From the NCBI GenBank assembly GCA_024036415.1, contig JAMWET010003105.1, positions 62,001 through 126,000 of the forward strand: DNA of 64,000 bases, in the 5' to 3' direction. The translations under genes and the position numbers were made by a program. This DNA comes from Prochilodus magdalenae (Eukaryota; Chordata; Actinopteri; Characiformes; Prochilodontidae). Shown here one piece after another: positions 21,440-50,626 of this stretch (position 1 is its first letter; each line of letters starts with the position of its first letter). The notes under the pieces are model-generated. The model worked only from the letters and a program-made list of their open reading frames with translations, was not told where the DNA came from and searched no databases.

Positions 21440-22665
21440 CTAATTCAATAATATGAATAAATGATGTGTAATAATGAGAAATGACACAGGGAAAAAGCAC
21501 TGAACACATGAGGAAAGAGATGAAAGTCATGACACAAGCTAAAATCTATCAGTACTTAAAAAGCAGACCTGCCACTAAGTGCAAAGTCATATCAGCTGGT
21601 ACAACACAAGAAGCATCTCACAATGGGTAAAACCAGCGGGCTCTCTCCAGACCACTGCAACCTTATTGTTGCAAAACATATAGATGGCATTGGTTACAGA
21701 AGTAAACTACTGAAGTTTCCAGTGAGCACTGTTGGGGCCATAAACCGGTAGTGGAAAGAACACTATTTCACCTTAACCCGATCATTTCAGACAGCGGAGT
21801 GAAAAGAATGATCAGATGAGTTGTCCAAGAGCCATGGACCACCGGTGGGGAGCTATAGAAAGATCTGGAATCAGCAGGTACAATTGTTTCAAAGAAAGCA
21901 ATCAGTAATGCAGTCAACCACGTCCTGCATGCACGCTCACCACACAAGACTGGATGGATGCTATAATACACACCATGTTTGCAGGTCACAATGCACCGCT
22001 TTCACCCTGAAAGCACCATACCAACAGTGAAGTTTGGAGGTGGGAACATCATGGTGTGGGGCTGTTTTTCTGCATACGGCACTGGCACACTTCATATAAC
22101 CGAAGGAAGGATGAATGCACAGATGCACCAATGAAGATGAAACGAGGGTGGACATTTCAGGAAGACAATGATCCCAAACACACAGTCAAGGAACTCTCAA
22201 TTGGTCTCAGAAAAAAAGTAAAGCTACTAGAATGGCCCAGCCAAACACCTGACCTGAATCCAACTGAAAATCTAGGGAAAGAACTAAAGCTCAGAATTCC
22301 TAGAAGGAGCCCACGGAACATTCAGGATTTGAAGAGTATTTGGGTGGAAGAATACAGCAAAATCACACCTGAACAATGCATGTGACTAGTTTCTTCATAC
22401 AGGTGTCTTAAAGCTGTCATCACCAACAAAGGCTTTTGTACGTTTTATTAAATTTAAAATTATTAAAGTGTGTTGAATACTTTTTCCCTGTCTCATGTCT
22501 TATCATTACACATAGCTTAAATTATGGACCTCTATGGTTTGATTTCCTTGCATGCATGGATTGGATGGCATCTGGTTAGAATTATGTCAATAGCGCCTTT
22601 AGAAATCTAATTACTTAGAAAACTGGTCACGTGTTCAATACGTATTTCACCTGCTCTATATGATA
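21440..22665 (+). mobile_element. Defective Tc1/mariner transposon with transposase relic
   Basis: From about 21620 to 22380 the + strand reads as a Tc1-type transposase in broken frames. It starts near MGKTSGLSPDHCNLIVAKH, and the later part includes [25 protein letters not shown] and [14 protein letters not shown]. The last two carry the second and third acidic positions of the DDE catalytic triad. Two internal deletions are evident. One, near 21948, removes the segment with the first catalytic Asp; the other, near 22115, removes residues before the second. The 3' end (cacgtgttcaatacgtattt near 22629-22648) matches the usual terminal repeat; the 5' terminal repeat is eroded. The element cannot encode active transposase. 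Confidence 0.88.
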
Positions 22666-40422: not shown

Positions 40423-43400
40423 TTAGCAGAAGTGGTCATCCTCGTCCTTATCGTCCTTCATCCCCTTCAGCCTCAACCGCGCAAAGTCCTCAAACACAAA
40501 GTCATCGTCCTGAGAAAAATTACTGAGGGAGAGGGAAATAGAGAGAGACAGAGATAGAGAGAGTGAGAAAGAGATCAAGGTCAATAACACTGAGGACAAT
40601 TTTAGCCATTGCCCCACACAGCAACAAGAACACGAATGCACAAAGATAACAAACTCACTTTGTCTCAAACTCTATCAGGTTGGTGTCCACAGGGGCGTCT
40701 GTCTCTGGCACAACTGCGGAGGAAAGGCAATAAACAACTGTAGTCTCTCTCATTAAGTAGCCATTAAAGTGAAGTGATTTCTCGATACTTCCCAAAATAC
40801 CATTTAAAATCGATTTTCCCTAAATAACTGTCTGGACTTTGTCCTAGACTAAAGGAATAAGCTACCATTTGACCACAGTTAAGGATTGCAGGGCACGACA
40901 CAAAGTGCACTAAAAACCTTGTAACACCAAGCCTTGAGTAGCTTATTGTTTTTATAAAACAAAAGGAAAACAGTAAAATAATAAAGCACACTCACGTTCA
41001 ATAAATTATTAGTAACAAACAGTACTGCTAATCAACACAGCACACTGTGGCTTTAATAAGGGGTGTAATCTGTGATCCTTCTCCTCATGTTGTAGTACTC
41101 AAGACCATAAATTAGCCATCTTATCTCAGCCTCAACATTTATTGGCATCGGTCTTGCCTCTGTCTTTTGGTTAGGAGGACTCAGAAATTGTTCTTGAGAT
41201 CAGCCGAGTGGGATACCTCTATCTAAGGTAACCAGAAACTGTACTTTTATTTGCCTCATTATAGAACATCAACAGCACCTAAACAGAATACCACAGTTTG
41301 TTCTGTACACATTTACATGTCGCCTAATTGATTATTTCCAAGCTGGCTTACATATGTTATTATCACTGCTGTTTATATTTTGATAATTTTAGGTGGTGAC
41401 TTTTAGAGATGACAACAGAGGATAACCGCACCATTTGTGGCTTGGACGTTTTCAGGCTATATATTAATTAATGTTATATTTTACATGCGTAAATATTTAT
41501 ATCCATAAAATATAACAGTATATCATATAATCAGTGTATTATATAATGTATATTATGGCTGCAGAATGAACAACAAATATTTTTTTTCTTCTAGTAAGTT
41601 TTATATTTTGAGCAAATTCTAATTTGGTCTCTGCTTTGTCTCAGTCTTGCCCCTCTTGGTCTTAGTCTTGGCCTTGGCTTCCAGGTCCTGAGCCTGAGTC
41701 AGAATTGTCTCTAATGGCCATGTATACAACATCTTTGCTTTCCTATAATGAGATAAGGGCCTCTACTTAAGCAGCATATGTACCTGACTGTGGTCTTGAG
41801 CTGGGCTGTTCAGAGGGCTTGGGGTGCATCAGGACAAAAGGTAGCTCCACAGATACATCCCTGATTTATAACACATTAAAAAGAAATAAGATGGGTAAAT
41901 ATGGAAATTAGCTTCGATTATATCTGGTTAAACATACATGTTAGATGTGTGATTGTGGCTCTTGTGCTCACCCTCCACGAGATACCACCAGCTTAACTTT
42001 GACTCTATAAGACACCAGGATCCCCAGAACCTCTTTATTGGACACATCCTTCACACTATAAAATAACAAAAACACAACAAATATAAACAAAAAAAATTGC
42101 TGTATAAACATCCTTATTGTGTCTGGCAATTTACCATTCAAACTGTAGACTTTAATTTCTCACTCTCATAACTAAATAACTTATTAAGCCCTTTATAAGC
42201 TGTATTAGTTGTACCAGAGGAGGTCCGGTAATGTAATTTGTAAGGGATTTGACTGGCTAAATTGCCATGGATAAAGTATTTCTGTAATTTCCCAAAATTA
42301 TTTCAGATAGCCTAGACTGAAACGTCACAGCCTGGACATTCACATCAGTGTTACCAATGAAATTAAATGGGCCCAAATAAACAAGTAACAAAAACTCCAA
42401 TTAATCCGTTAATGCTAGGTACACTAGCATTCTGCTAGTTAACTGGACTTAATAGATCAGTGAAATGGGCCCATAATGCCCTTTCAGAGATACTTCTACG
42501 ATATTTATGTTCCTGTTATAATTATAGCAGTCTTGTTTTGAACTTGACACAACTCCATTTTAGTTTTAGAAGGTATCGATATCTATTACCAAGTGTTGTT
42601 TTTCCATTATTGTGGGGTTGCTTTAAACTACCATTGCCAGATTCATCCAGGTTTTCTTAGGACTTGTTGTAGATTTGTGATAAGTGAAAAAGTAACTGAA
42701 TGACAGCCTTGCTTTAAAGGGATAAGTCCCAAAGAAAAGTAGAAATTTGAGTCTGCAGAGCAGTGCTGGGATGTTGTGTGGGGTGGTATGTGCTCACATG
42801 GTGCTGGAGGCCAGGTTAGTATCCTCATGCTTGAGTTTGCCATCCAAGGCCAGACCCCTCTTCTCTCTGTTGTTGTTCAGTGTAGGGGTGAGTGTGTACA
42901 CCTTACAGAACGTGGAACTGGGTGACACTTGATCACTGAAGAAGACAAGCAAGGGAGAGGTTAGAAAGAGGTCATACTTCCATACTGCTAATATATCTGG
43001 TTACTGATCTAAGGTATGTAAGCAAATGGTTGCAGTCTCTTACTCCAGACAGTAAAGAAAGAGAAGTTTGCTTGAAAATGAAATACCGTGTGCATATACA
43101 TAAATATCAGGGGGTGTGTGAGAATTTACAAATAGAGAGAGTTTTATGGAGACACAAAAGACCTGTTTTCTGGCCTGGTTTAAAAGAACCACAACAGACA
43201 GCAAATGAGGGGAAAGGCGAACAGAAAAAGAAAGCAGAGGACGAGAAATGAGAAAGAGGATCTTCCTCTAAGGCTAGCATTTAATGGAGAATGTACAGCA
43301 GGGGAAGTAATGCAAACACAACACTGTAGGCGAGCTGAGAAAAAAAAAATCAAGGCCTTATTTTTCGTAGGGACACACAAAAGTTTAGACAGCAACTGTA

Positions 43401-46400
43401 TTGGGTGAGGGGGGACCCATATCAGCTGCAGCCTGTGACAAATACCGAAGGCACTACAACAAATCATTTATTTCTGAACACTGAGATCAATAGTAAGCGG
43501 GGAGAAATTTAGCTGTCAGCCCAGCAGCTTGAATGCTTGAAAAGCTGGCAGACTTAAAATAATTAAAATGCAGCACAAAATCCAAGAAAACAACTATAAT
43601 AAATAATTTCACTGCATCAGTTATTCATTTTTGATGAATTACAGAACATTTTGTCAGCTCCCCACACTGGAGGTGAGGAAAAAAGTCCAAGAAGCATAAT
43701 GACTTGGGAGGGATGGTCAAAGGAGCCAGTAGGGCTGTTCAGGGTCAAAAAAGGGGGCCCTGGGCTTGGCTGTACTCACCGGGAGGCCAGCCGACCCACA
43801 GATTTGCTGTAGGTATCGCTGGAGTGCAGAACCACGTATGTCACCTGCAGCACTAGGAGAGAACAGCCCTTCATGTTGTCACTACAGACATAGCCAATCA
43901 GTAGGAGGGGAAGTGGCTAACCAGGGGCAACCGGCTGGCAGGCATGGCATGTACTGTGATGTCACAATGAACTGAAAAGGGCAGTAGGCTTAGTTATACT
44001 GACTAAGCGATTGGGGTAGTTGCTGTGGAAGAAAGCAACAGCTACAGACTTTGCTTTGCTGCTTTGGTTACAGCAAAAACAAAGCATGAAGTGAATTACA
44101 GCAAATGCTGAGAATGGTCTGGGAAGCTCTGAGGTCTAGAACAAACCCATGTGATGTACTCCATGAGCCTTTACCTATAGCACTACATGATAATCTCTAA
44201 CAATGCAGGTAAACAATATGGTGTGGTGTATAAGAATGCCACATCCATCCAACTTTATTACCACAGAACAACAGGGAGACCGGTGTGGCTGAGAAAACAG
44301 ACGAGGCAGCCAGAAAACAAGGTAGAACTGAGATTTCTCATTCATTCAGAATGAGAGGGCCGTAAAAGTCTAGAAAGTCTGAGCAAAATGAAGAAAAGAG
44401 AGAAGAAGAGAATGGAGCAAAGGGGAAGGAGGGATGGAGAGAGTTGAAGGGGTACTCACTCGGCCTCTACCTGAGCCACAGGGCATTTGTACTGCGCAGT
44501 ACTGAACAGACAGATATCAGCATACTGTCGCACTGTGGGGAGAGAGCAGGGACACACAGCAGGGTTAGCCAGGCAGGAGAACAGCACAGTTACACACGTG
44601 CACATGCATGTCACACTTACATTCACACAAACAAACAAGCGTACAAGCATTGATGCAAATATGCACAAACACACACATACATATTTACATTTATACCAAA
44701 CCTTCCCTTATGTACTTCCTAGTCAAAGCAGACACTTAGTATGTGTTAAAAAATATTACAGTAAATTACCCAGAAGCCTCTAGAACTAATTATAATAACA
44801 CAGTCTCTTCACTTTCAGTTTTTGAAAGAAATCTGCAGGGATATTTTTTCTACACCTCCTCAGTCTTAGAAACTGTTGTGACCTCTGCTTCTCATGCTTC
44901 TAGTCATCACTGAGATCTGAACTGCAACGTAGTCAGTGCAGGGTTTTGAGACAATCAGCAGCCTCTCAGTTTGCAAATATTTTTTGCAAATCTTCTTTTC
45001 TAAGTAACAGCTTCAGATTTATGATGTTGAGTTCTCAGTGTGAATAGAAGGACAGCAACATGTAGGTTATTTGTTAAGAGCCCCTTTCACCTCTCTCGCT
45101 CAAGCTCTATATCTGATATGCAAGTTTTGCTGATTACCAGGAACAATAAATGATGATAAATTTAGACTGAAATGGGGAATATTTATTGAGCTACACATAC
45201 AGAAGCAGTCTCTCAGTATGGCTTCATGCCATCATGTTTGCTAATGTAACATGCCAGATGTCTTGGCATGGAGTTGTGGTGGTTCTTAATGCTGTCCTGT
45301 AATAATCCATCCCATGCACCTTAAACATTCTCACACAGATGCTGCGGTAGGGGTGGAGGTGGAAGGACACCAGGCTTTCTGGATGTCTGACACTTAACAA
45401 CTGTGCATCTTGCCACTGACCATGGTGCCTTCACACACAGATTTGTTGGTTGTCTACACCAATGATGACCCACTGCCATTCTGAGTCACTCCATGACTGG
45501 ATCTTGACTGGATGATGTCTGGAACTTGAATAATTTCATGTCTCATGATGGAATTTTCTTTCCTGTTAGTTGATTCCCCTTTAAATTATCTTTTTATATC
45601 TTTGACTTCTTTTTTTCTAATTATATGAATAACTTCATAACAACCTGAAAGCCCATTGTGATTGGAAATTGAATGAATTGAAATGAATGCTGGTCAGCAC
45701 AGTGCTGTAGACTCACATCAATCCACAAAAAGGACAGGAAAAGAAAGGAAAGCAAAGTGCATGAACAAACAATATAGTCCATTTAATGTGTGCATGGCAT
45801 GGCTATCTTACACCCGCATAGTACAAATTATCAATATCTTTCTGCTAAATTAAACCTAAATGCGTGGAGATGTTCGGTAACCTAGAATTAAGCAAACAAC
45901 GTTATCTTAAATAGTGAAGTGATACCATCAACAGCTAAAACAAACACCTATTTAAGCACTCTGTTATCTCAGTACCAGGCACAATAATATACTGATACAC
46001 AGATGTCTCTCTGGAAACACCATCATTACTAACTTAAAATCTGCACTTAACAGATGTACATCAAAACTACTGTAGTTAAATAAACACTCCAGCCGCTATG
46101 GATGAGGAAAATCAACAAGGCAAAAAGGATGAGTGAGTTGAAATGGACAGAGTAAGCATCAGGACTGTGAAACAGGACAACAAACAAAACAGCTTAAAGA
46201 AATCACACATGAATTTGACCAAATCCATCAACACATCATCAACCATTCAGCTGCAGTTTAGGCTGCCCATTACCTGAGATTTTGACTCGTTTGACAGTTT
46301 TGGTGGAGTTGTTGGTGACATGAACATTGACACTGATGGGTTCTCCATGGTAATAGAGCTGGAAGAACAAACAGATCTTAAGAAAGCTCATATTCTCTTA

Positions 46401-49400
46401 CTATCTACACACACAAATGAAGGTTTACTCAACAAGTAAAATGGACTGATAAGGGAAAAATTTTAAACACCTCTTTGTCGAGTGAGGCCTCCAAGTGTAG
46501 GGAGCGGTCAGACATGAGAAAGCTGCGTGTTGTCTCCACCATGGGCTGTGGTCCTGGCTTCTCTGGCGCATACTGAACCTTGCGGATTACCAGTCTCACT
46601 GAGTTTCTATACAAATAAACAAGAACAAAAAGGCTTAACAGTCTTCTCAACAATACACACAGAAATATAAACAGGCAGCCGTACACGCCGGCTCTCAGTA
46701 CACGCCACAAATAAACTCTTATTTAAACTGACACAGACACACATCCCTAAGCACCTCCATGTATACTGAAGCACAAAGACTGCTACAAACTATATTCAGA
46801 GGGAGGACAAACATAAAGCCAAGCCTCTGCACCTTTTGTGAATCTTCTCCTCCACAGATTTGGCACAGAAAGCTCTGATCTCGAAGTCTACACCACAAGC
46901 CTGAGGGACCAAAGTTGGCGATATGTTAGAAGTTACAGAACTGTAAGGTGAAAAAGTGTATGCGCGTGTGGTTGTTTTTACCTTGCCCGTGTCCTCTGGT
47001 CCTGGCTGTAAAGTGACTGAACAGGGGAGATTCTGTGGAATCTAAACGAAGCAAGAAATTGTTTATGCATAACTCAATTACAAACGAGCGCATGTTTACA
47101 ATATTATGTTACATATTATGTTATGATACAAAAAGGCACATACTTTATAACGTAGGGCAATCATAAAGCATTTCTATATGATGATTTCTATACGACTCCT
47201 TTAAAGTTAGAGGTGACTTAAAGGTGACTTAATATTGGGTTATAGTTGCACCCTCGTTTCCAAATAAAAACTGGAATGGCTAATGAATGGGACATTTTAA
47301 AACTTTAATATTATTTACATATTACACATGTTTACATATAAAGTATATTATAGCTATAACATAGTAAGTATAATATTGCTGCATGTTGAAACACTGGATG
47401 CTCGTAGTCTTCAGTGGCTTATTGGTAATAAACGGAAAAAAAAGCATAGTATTAATAACAGCAGCAATGAACAATTATATAGGAAATGTAGTTCATTAAC
47501 CATAAGCTATGGTTGCTAAACAGTCAAATGTTATTCCACAAACAGCACAATGGTTTTTAATGCTTACTACAGAGTTTTAATTTGATGTGTACTGTCATGT
47601 GAGTGCATGGTGTACATTTTACAGTGGCTTCAACTGTGGCTCAGCATATCATGACCAGAAGTATCTGTCTTATAAGCAGTTATACACAATGAGCATTCTG
47701 AATGAATGACTAGCCATATAATGGAATTGTAATTACAGTGAAGTTGAAGGGATGTGCATGCTGCCCAAGCTTTTTCAGCAGTCGCTCTTGGAGGCGGCTA
47801 AGTGGTTTGCGCTCCTCGGGCAGTGGAGGGAAAGCCTGGAAGGTGGAGATGTACAGGTCCTTTCTAAAGGACAGGCCAAGCACATCCAGGTCCTCACGGC
47901 CATAACGGAAGGCACATGTCAGGGTCACAAAAACTGGAGAGAAAGAAGGAGAGAATAAAAAAAGTTTAAACATGACCATTGCAAAGATGGTCAGAAAAAT
48001 TCTTTGAGGTTTTAATATACTTCCTTAACGTAAAAACTAAGCATTTACAGACAGTCTCTCATTATAGAAAATTGGTCAGTCTGTTCACCCACCTTTTCTG
48101 TCTTTAAGGTATTCTGGGTCAATCAAAAGCACTCCATCTAAAGCCAGACAATATTCATAATTAGCACCACAGTAAAGACAGTCATGCACAGCAGCAGAAT
48201 TATACTCTTCATTTAGCTAATGCTCCTGTTTTATAGGCTCTCAAAACTGATGATGCAGTGCATGAGACAATTACACTGTGAAAGTGATAGCTCAGTATTT
48301 TGGAGGGCGTATTTTTCTTCCTAATATGGTACAATGCTAAGACTATCCTGTACACTTTAAGAGTTTGATGAACACTGTAGAGGAGACACAGTATTACCGA
48401 CAGGCTAAACAGGTTTATACTAGTCTAACACCTATAAAGGGTGCTGTTGTGGTTCCAGTAATAAATGAATTATTGTAATCATCTTGCAGCCCTATTATAT
48501 ATGGATTTTAACTAAAAGCATCCAGATGCTATTTAGTGATTTTCACTAACACAGACCTCCAGCTTCTAGTTTTAGTAATACACTATCAGTTTCCAGTAGT
48601 TCTGTGCTAAAAGACAAGTTGATGTCGACTAATTTAAGTAAATGAAAGGTGTCAATAGTGTTGTCATTCACCTAGAAATGTACAGCCAATCAAACAAACC
48701 TTTTCTGTATTTTTTGCTTCCAGAAGGCAGTAAGGTCACACACAAAATATACAGTATAGATTGATTTGGGCCTGAAAATTTTTTTTTTTAAATAATAAAG
48801 AAAATATAATGAGTATTTACCCACCTTGCAATTCAAATGGGATAAATATAGCTTACATTATTTTGTCTATAATATAGTTCTAGTTTGTTTTATTTTTACA
48901 AAAGCCATCAGAATCTTTAGTGACATGAAAGCACAAGGTTTGAGAAAAGGATTGACGTGGCAGATTTGGATGTGACTAAAATAACCAGTAATAATTACAT
49001 TACAACACCTTTCGATGTAAAGCTAATCTCACTGGATATTACTCTTCACACACGCCTACACAGAAAAGCCTTTTAGTGAAGGAGGTAACAATTACAGTAA
49101 GCACTTACAATTAGAATACTTCAGACTAACTCTTCATTACCCACACACGCACACCTTAATCTCTGTCATTAGTGGAACTTCTGTGTCTCCCTAACTCAAA
49201 TAAATAAGTTCCTCCTGTGTGTTGCTGTCAAGGAAACAGAGAGCACCAGGGACAGGAAGAGGTTTGGGAGAAAATAAACAACATCAACAGAGGACAATGA
49301 ACACTTGCCATACTATCTTGATGATGATAAAAGCACTTCAAGGGACAAATCTGCAAACCTGCACAAAACCTGTGACTCACAAGAGTCAACAAGAAGATTC

Positions 49401-50626
49401 ACTGTGGCTCCCACACACTCTGCTGTAACCTTAACGTCACGGTCAGGTCAACCTTTTTGTTAACAAGAGTCAGGAGTGTTTGATGTTTTGTCCTAATTTG
49501 CATTTACCAGAACATAGTTCTTAGTTGAGGCTTGGTCTCTGTGAAGCGGTAAAGGAGTTGATCAATGATTGGTGCAAGAAAAACAGACATCAAGCTAACG
49601 GATGCTGCTGTGGTTAAGACTTCAGCTAATAGGGGTTGCTATGATAAATACTCAGGAGACAGCTGAGAGACCACAGTTTTCCTCTGCATGTCAATTGTTC
49701 TCACTACAGCTGACTACACTGCTCAAAATTTTCAGAAACAGCAAAAATCCTTTATGTATATATATATATATATGTACTCATGGGAAACTCACCAACTGGG
49801 TCCACATGATCTAGATGATCCACAAAGTCCCTCTTCCCCAGATATACCGTGAGCTAGGACAAAAAACAAACAAAAAAAATTACATTTTGATGACACAAGC
49901 CTGACCAGCTAATGAACCAGCAGTCTGAAAGTAATTCAGAGTGCATAATTCTCCTCTTGAGAATTGTTCGCCACATAAGCACACACATACAGACTTCACC
50001 AAACAGCTTGAATCATGCCAAACTGACCCCAAGCCGCTCCACACCCTTCCTGTAGACGACCCTGCCAGACCGAATGATATCACAAAAAACATCCTCCACA
50101 CATATACAACTCTCCATCAGAGGGTGGAGAGAAAGAGAGAGCAGACAGACACACGCAAAAGCAAAGGCACAGACAGAATACAAAACAGAACATGTATCAA
50201 CCAACAACCAAGATTAAAAGGTAAATGAAACCAGTGGTAGACTGGTTACACAGGAAGAAAGGAGGCAAAACAGAATTCACCAAATGCACAAAACAGAAGC
50301 AGAGAAGGAAAAAAAACAGAATGATTTAGCAACAGCGCAGGTGACACGGCAAGATATAAATATGTAGATGACAGAAAGAACAAGACAGGAGAGGAGGCAA
50401 GAGAAAGGAGTGACCCTGAGGAAATGACGGAGGAAAGAAACAGAGGGAGGGAGGGAAATGGGAGGGGACCAAGAGAAAGAGAGAGACAGAAAGACAGAGC
50501 ACAATAGGAAAGGAGATGGTCCACTGAGAGAAAGGAAGAGCCTCTCATGCATGAGCAAACACAAACACAAGAGACACACGTTACAGGAATGTTACCTTGC
50601 AGTTGGGGCTGGACTTTTTGAAGACT
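40423..50626 (-). CDS. arrb2: Beta-arrestin 2, exons 2-15 (5' end missing)
   Basis: Exons in gene order: 50596-50626, 49793-49853, 48093-48137, 47737-47933, 46982-47041, 46833-46900, 46471-46606, 46274-46358, 44460-44532, 42798-42935, 41972-42055, 41784-41860, 40659-40713, 40423-40522. They give 402 residues plus the first few residues from an unseen exon 1, matching the usual ~410. Landmarks are [10 protein letters not shown], the finger loop [47 protein letters not shown], the clathrin box LIEFE and the AP2 motif [14 protein letters not shown] in the tail points to ARRB2 rather than ARRB1, as does the neighbour pelp1. Arrestins bind phosphorylated, active GPCRs, block G-protein coupling and link receptors to clathrin. 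The exon 15 acceptor at 40522 adds NFSQ before DDDFVFEDF. An alternative exon at 43780-43852 is listed separately. Confidence 0.95.
43780..43852 (-). CDS. arrb2: Alternative arrb2 exon '10b', visual-arrestin-like
   Basis: This 73-nt exon lies between arrb2 exon 10 (44460-44532, also 73 nt) and exon 11 (42798-42935). The acceptor is ttctctcctag and the donor CG|gtgagtac. It starts and ends in the same phases as exon 10, so it can replace it exactly. It encodes [17 protein letters not shown] and then SVGRLASR, in place of [16 protein letters not shown] and then [10 protein letters not shown]-x-Q-V-x-x-V-V-L-x-S-S-D is the pattern of visual (rod/cone) arrestins at this strand. Including both exons gives a TGA at the exon 11 junction; skipping both shifts exon 11 into a TGA after 19 codons. 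Expression is not proven by sequence. An untranscribed fossil of an exon duplication is the main alternative, but the open frame and splice sites argue against it. Confidence 0.82.
45160..45575. repeat. Unclassified degenerate repeat-like stretch
   Basis: This part of arrb2 intron 9 differs in texture from its flanks: it is less AT-rich and has transposase-like word use on the - strand. No frame stays open and no terminal repeats were found. The call is weak. Confidence 0.2.
50105..50560. repeat. Purine-rich low-complexity tract
   Basis: A GA-rich segment inside arrb2 intron 2. Long open frames on both strands here are a composition effect (few TA-containing codons) and not genes. Confidence 0.7.

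Follow-up and report, generated by a model that had tools for sequence, protein, structure and literature searches.

The window, a 64,000-nucleotide stretch of a Prochilodus magdalenae contig, was found to contain on its reverse strand a beta-arrestin-2 gene (arrb2) with two versions of exon 10, here called 10a and 10b (Table 1). A 99-residue peptide joining exons 9, 10b and 11 matches beta-arrestin-2 among PDB chains with an E value of 5e-42, compared with about 5e-39 for beta-arrestin-1 and 7e-33 for S-arrestin. By these matches the gene is closest to ARRB2 and not to ARRB1 or the visual arrestins, even with 10b in the query. In the related carp 10b isoform (P0003), both the Arrestin_N and Arrestin_C domains of Pfam score above the cut-off.

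Other features were also observed in the window, namely two lipoxygenase exons, a long open frame with an acidic stretch and a fragment with a DDE_3 match. The neighbours of human ARRB2 are presumably a lipoxygenase and PELP1, and we take the acidic frame to be PELP1-like and the DDE_3 fragment to belong to a Tc1/mariner-like transposase. Within arrb2 itself, an alternative first coding exon would swap one 11-residue segment of the protein for another of 11 residues. A relative of this exon opens three of the 122 arrestin proteins retrieved in this study (Danio P0005, Brienomyrus P0043 and Pimephales P0047), and the zebrafish model P0005 also has 10b. The second arrb2 gene of this genome seems to have no room for such an exon because its exons 2 and 3 are only about 100 nt apart.

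Table 1. Positions of arrb2 exons and of neighbouring features in the window
Feature	Position	Strand	Remarks
Lipoxygenase exon	8198-7905	(-)	Pfam PF00305, E 2e-12
Lipoxygenase exon	6403-6083	(-)	Pfam PF00305, E 2e-6
Fragment with DDE_3 match	22011-22385	(+)	Match below the curated cut-off
Open frame, 677 residues	27468-25435	(-)	Long acidic stretch; no Pfam match
arrb2 coding region, exons 2-15 as modelled	40423..50626	(-)	Exon 1 with the usual start not located
arrb2 alternative first coding exon, 30 residues	50028..50117	(-)	Between exons 2 and 3; donor GTCAGT
arrb2 exon 9, 85 nt	46274..46358	(-)	Shared upstream neighbour of 10a and 10b; 28 residues
arrb2 exon 10a, 73 nt, standard beta-arrestin type	44460..44532	(-)	25 residues; acceptor ...CTCTCTCCCCACAG, donor GTGAGTAC
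Intron separating 10a from 10b, 607 nt	43853..44459	(-)	
arrb2 exon 10b, 73 nt, visual-arrestin-like	43780..43852	(-)	25 residues; acceptor TTCTCTCCTAG, donor GTGAGTAC
arrb2 exon 11, 138 nt	42798..42935	(-)	Shared downstream neighbour; begins TGATCAAG

The last base of exon 9 is a G, the start of a split codon that is continued by either 10a or 10b. The two exons have the same length, the same phases and an identical donor, and splice-site inspection of the window shows that the acceptor end of 10b reads ...CTGTTCTCTCCTAG. The coordinates, lengths, phases and splice sites given for both exons in the original prediction were all reproduced, as was its count of six agreeing residues out of 25 between the two peptides.

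A total of 524 segments of 73 nucleotides flanked by AG and GT were found on both strands of the window, 138 of them open in the phase of exon 10, and the segments were scored by BLOSUM62 against five visual and three non-visual exon-10 peptides. Exon 10b has the best mean score against the five visual peptides (40.8), followed by 10a (28.8), and 10a has the best non-visual score of the open segments (120.3). The remaining 136 open segments reach at most 0.0 for the visual and 1.7 for the non-visual peptides, and resemblance to an arrestin exon 10 was observed in only two of the 138, 10a and 10b.

In the whole assembly (1.18 Gb in 7790 contigs), we found at least a second arrb2, one arrb1 and three visual arrestin genes, labelled by exon likeness from the best candidates scored. 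One exon 10 was found in the locus fetched for each of these five genes, and exon 10 is an interchangeable unit because the exons of the visual genes, arrb1 and the second arrb2 are likewise 73 nt long and in the same phase. No second exon-10 candidate was found among the open AG-73-GT or AG-73-GC segments on the gene strand of the five loci (introns 9-11, sometimes less than the whole gene). In the second arrb2, the introns on either side of 10a show no trace of 10b, with scores at the level of shuffled sequence, and the only match of the 25-residue 10b peptide in the assembly is the window (E up to 0.001).

Protein searches with the 10b region, in a database of clusters at 90% identity, listed 122 arrestin proteins, one search contributing 120 of 201 matches. 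The 10b motif was found in twelve of them, all from teleosts and representing nine genera: Pygocentrus with three proteins, Cyprinus with two, and Sinocyclocheilus, Danio, Denticeps, Albula, Coregonus, Esox and Coilia. The 10a motif occurs in 112 of the 122, and of these only two, both teleost models, have the 10b motif as well. Two Pygocentrus proteins do not differ from the window anywhere in the 43-residue region searched, the Danio exon agrees with the window exon at 20 of 25 residues, and pairwise identities among seven 10b sequences range from 16/25 to 20/23 (64-87%). A taxonomy look-up places Albula in Elopomorpha, Denticeps in Otomorpha and Esox in Euteleosteomorpha, so that with a single origin the exon would have been present in the common ancestor of these three groups. 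Outside the teleosts no 10b motif was found among the 122 proteins listed, where gar, bichir, coelacanth, ray, shark, turtle and mammals have 10a only, which is a weak negative given the clustering of the database and the share of matches listed. These protein-level comparisons support the coding exon that had been proposed and show that 10b is a conserved exon of teleost arrb2. A chance artefact was rejected on the scan of splice-flanked segments together with the presence of 10b in other fishes.

Seven of the twelve 10b proteins lack 10a and follow the order exon 9, 10b, exon 11 (P0001-P0006 and P0010), with 10b two residues short in P0006. The other five look faulty around 10b: P0008 and P0009 each combine 10a with 10b in a single chain, P0011 has 10b fused to read-through sequence, and in P0007 and P0012 it is linked to exon 8 via other sequence. 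As the annotated models are mixed, annotation alone does not prove exclusive use. Such models, along with the two introns of the second arrb2 in which no trace of 10b was found, are what might be expected if 10b were out of use or on its way to being lost, and were included by gene predictors for its likeness to an arrestin exon. However, we give this explanation hardly any credence, as an unused exon is not expected to have kept its frame, splice sites and identity since the common ancestor of those fishes, whereas 10b has an open frame and both splice sites here and is 64-87% identical among the seven sequences. The exon is not new to annotation, since a predicted zebrafish RefSeq model ('arrestin, beta 2b isoform X2', XP_009301315.1) already carries it. 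This model and the carp record A0A8C0YPP0 are predicted isoforms with the same exon, 10b, instead of 10a, and they answer half of the question, raised with the original prediction, of whether such arrestins had been recorded in fishes.

When exons 2-15 are spliced in silico, either 10a alone or 10b alone gives an open frame of 402 residues to the stop. With both exons included, the frame runs at once into a TGA, the first codon of exon 11, owing to the bases with which that exon begins (TGATCAAG), and with neither included a TGA is met at the 19th full codon of exon 11. Both early stops lie where they had been foreseen. As 73 cannot be divided by three, a transcript stays in frame only if it includes one of the two exons and not the other, and by frame logic one-or-the-other use is the sole productive outcome, as had been argued. 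Transcripts in which further exon junctions follow a premature stop are decayed, and because further junctions follow here, the products with both exons or with neither would be decayed by the usual rule. The two exons are homologous, adjacent and equal in length and phase, and the frame is kept by single inclusion only, as is the case for mutually exclusive pairs. From this arrangement we infer mutually exclusive splicing of 10a and 10b, with nonsense-mediated decay of the other products.

The same TGA codons could instead reflect a role of 10b mainly as a poison exon, its joint inclusion with 10a, or the skipping of both, lowering arrb2 through nonsense-mediated decay. A poison exon, however, has no need of an open frame or of a visual-type peptide, and both are preserved in the 10b of Elopomorpha, Otomorpha and Euteleosteomorpha; such a role seems to us very improbable.

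Eight sites in exon 10 were taken as diagnostic, being those where bovine SAG (PDB 1cf1) and salamander cone arrestin (PDB 1suj) agree, ARRB1 and ARRB2 agree, and the two pairs differ, with the visual residues read from the PDB chains. Each of the eight 10b sequences tested has the visual residue at six of these sites, the non-visual residue at none and another residue at two. The probability of six visual and no non-visual residues by chance is about 7e-6 under a BLOSUM-based model, or 0.003 with the per-site odds tripled. When the three visual exons of this genome are included, only ARRB2 sites 242, 248 and 252 of the eight are still uniform, and by eye 10b agrees with all of them. The window 10b is identical to bovine SAG at 13 of 25 residues and to salamander cone arrestin at 12, with a range of 11-13 for the eight sequences. 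In the diagnostic-site comparison, as in the seven-sequence set used for pairwise identity, net charge and receptor positions, the Albula row takes its second residue from Albula 10a.

The pattern V.QVT.VVL.S.D.Y.K.V is shared between 10b and the visual arrestins. On the other hand, 10b departs from the visual type in its last six residues (GRLASR in the window), in its net charge, which is +2 in the window and ranges from -1 to +2 over seven sequences whereas bovine SAG and salamander cone arrestin both have -3, and in its fourth position, where it has V and the three visual arrestins found in this genome have T. The rod/cone pattern claimed for 10b is upheld by the diagnostic sites and by the exon tree described below, and it fails at the last six residues, the net charge and the fourth position. 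As judged from these comparisons, 10b is a visual-type segment of incomplete likeness.

The exon tree was built by maximum likelihood from 18 exon-10 peptides over 25 sites and is unrooted. The Coilia row was entered without its first residue and one extra residue before DQV, the Albula row was cut at its 10a-10b fusion, and the 10b sequences of carp and Sinocyclocheilus were left out, being nearly identical to that of Danio. An origin of 10b within the 10a of ARRB2 is rejected in this tree (AU p 0.0035). On this tree 10b may belong with SAG, with ARR3 or beside both, and because the tree is unrooted and has three groups it shows only that 10b lies outside ARRB2 10a and not which group it joins.

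At the DNA level, the exon closest to 10b is the SAG-like exon of this genome, with 43 of 73 bases identical and 33 of 49 at first and second codon positions. This exon shares 43/73 and 37/73 bases with the two ARR3-like exons of the genome. That 10b was copied recently from one of the visual exons here was rejected, since it is about as far from the SAG-like exon as that exon is from the ARR3-like ones. Between 10b and its own 10a, 33 of 73 bases agree, compared with a mean of 18.5 in 20,000 shuffles of 10b (P 0.0001). This excess, plus the shared donor GTGAGTAC, would suit an origin of 10b by tandem duplication of 10a, as is usual for mutually exclusive exons, after which 10b came to look visual by convergence; it would then be a real alternative exon that alters stability or IP6 binding and not receptor choice. 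The tree test speaks against such a history, although with only 25 codons it is not decisive, as do the six visual and no non-visual diagnostic residues and the greater nearness of 10b to the SAG-like exon than to its own 10a, and we regard convergence as unlikely. We put forward, tentatively and with some reserve, that teleosts kept a visual-type exon 10 in beta-arrestin-2, or captured one from a visual arrestin gene, and that splicing gives the one arrestin either a general receptor-reading element or a visual-type one. Of these two routes, capture from a visual arrestin gene might have happened long ago.

Exon 10 corresponds to residues 236-260 of ARRB2, 235-259 of ARRB1 and 241-265 of bovine SAG in the numbering of the PDB chains. 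It presumably contains the so-called C-loop, which we take to face intracellular loop 2 of the receptor, and the arrestin-3 mutants Y239T, Q256Y, D260K and Q262P reportedly go back to work by Gimenez in 2012. Five of the 17 receptor-binding positions in the legend of Fig. 7 of PMC5501109 fall in exon 10 (244, 246, 254, 261 and 265, taken as bovine SAG numbers), as do five of the 12 in its Fig. 5 legend (ARRB1 242, 245, 247, 248 and 249). SAG 254 is the same position as ARRB1 248, so that these lists place nine different receptor positions in the exon. The clustering of the legend positions in exon 10 (hypergeometric 0.002) is only suggestive because the positions are the authors' selection and some single numbers might be ARR3 numbers. 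The same source places two inositol-hexakisphosphate (IP6) positions in exon 10 (ARRB1 236 and 250) and describes A253D as a key visual change (PMC5501109).

At seven of the nine receptor positions, the window 10b differs from 10a (Y239V, D241Y, C243V, A248D, Q249T, Q256R and D260R in ARRB2 numbering), leaving S246 and Y250 unchanged, and both IP6 positions are altered (ARRB1 R236 to L and K250 to S). Across seven 10b sequences, SAG positions 244, 246, 254, 261 and 265 are occupied respectively by V, D (Y in the window), T, R or H, and R or S (one gap), and ARRB1 positions 242, 245, 247, 248 and 249 by V, S or R, D, T and Y. IP6 position 236 is L, A or Q (the A being that of Albula, whose residue here derives from its 10a), position 250 is S, N or K, and the A253D site is D in all seven. 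At ARRB2 position 241, Y occurs in the window alone, the six other 10b sequences having D as in 10a. The presence of IP6 positions 236 and 250 inside the exon (PMC5501109) would also accord with the convergence account, in which IP6 binding and not receptor choice is altered.

In the mechanism that we propose, one of the two homologous in-frame versions of exon 10 in arrb2 (arrb2b in zebrafish) would be chosen by splicing. Inclusion of 10a would give the ordinary beta-arrestin-2, and inclusion of 10b a beta-arrestin-2 with a visual-type C-domain segment at residues 236-260, the remainder, including the C-terminal tail, being non-visual. The choice of exon would thereby change several receptor contacts together with part of the IP6 site. 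With seven of nine receptor positions and both IP6 positions replaced, the 10b isoform would most likely prefer a different subset of receptors and bind IP6 more weakly. That splicing swaps a receptor-reading element of arrb2 is, on the sequence evidence, probable. An AlphaFold model of the carp 10b isoform P0003 (mean pLDDT 46, from a 28-row alignment) was too poor to judge the fit of the segment.

The IIIb and IIIc exons of FGFR2 are mutually exclusive homologous exons of vertebrates, the choice of which alters a binding element. The arrb2 pair would be similar in that one of two homologous exons is used and a binding element changed, and it differs in that 10b is less like its neighbour exon than like a paralogous gene family. 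All other exons are those of beta-arrestin-2 (ARRB2; PDB 8til and 3p2d), in which only residues 236-260 would be replaced. The visual arrestins SAG and ARR3 resemble 10b in the pattern of the exon 10 peptide, and the visual genes of this genome resemble it in exon length and phase, whereas the rest of the window protein is ARRB2 and the end and charge of 10b are not theirs. Arrestin exons have been annotated across deuterostomes with exon- and paralog-specific models (PMC5501109), and the main text of that paper contains neither 'mutually exclusive' nor 'exon 10'; no mention of a second exon 10 was found in the sections consulted. A limited literature search, by title or the start of the abstract, found no description of such an exon, and 10b may perhaps lack an earlier description in papers.

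Non-visual arrestins recognise several hundred receptors (PMC5501109). The basis of arrestin receptor preference is an open question, and a natural, conserved swap of exons in a receptor-binding element would provide for its testing a pair of isoforms that are identical elsewhere. Zebrafish, which has 10b by annotation, would be convenient for isoform-specific knock-outs. Exon 10b also bears on how the visual arrestins gained their receptor-binding element. In the boldest form of the reading in which the exon was kept, the ancestral vertebrate arrestin may have had both exons, teleost arrb2b being a living relic of it; if this is true, the split between visual and non-visual arrestins after genome duplication would in part have been a sorting of two alternative exons.
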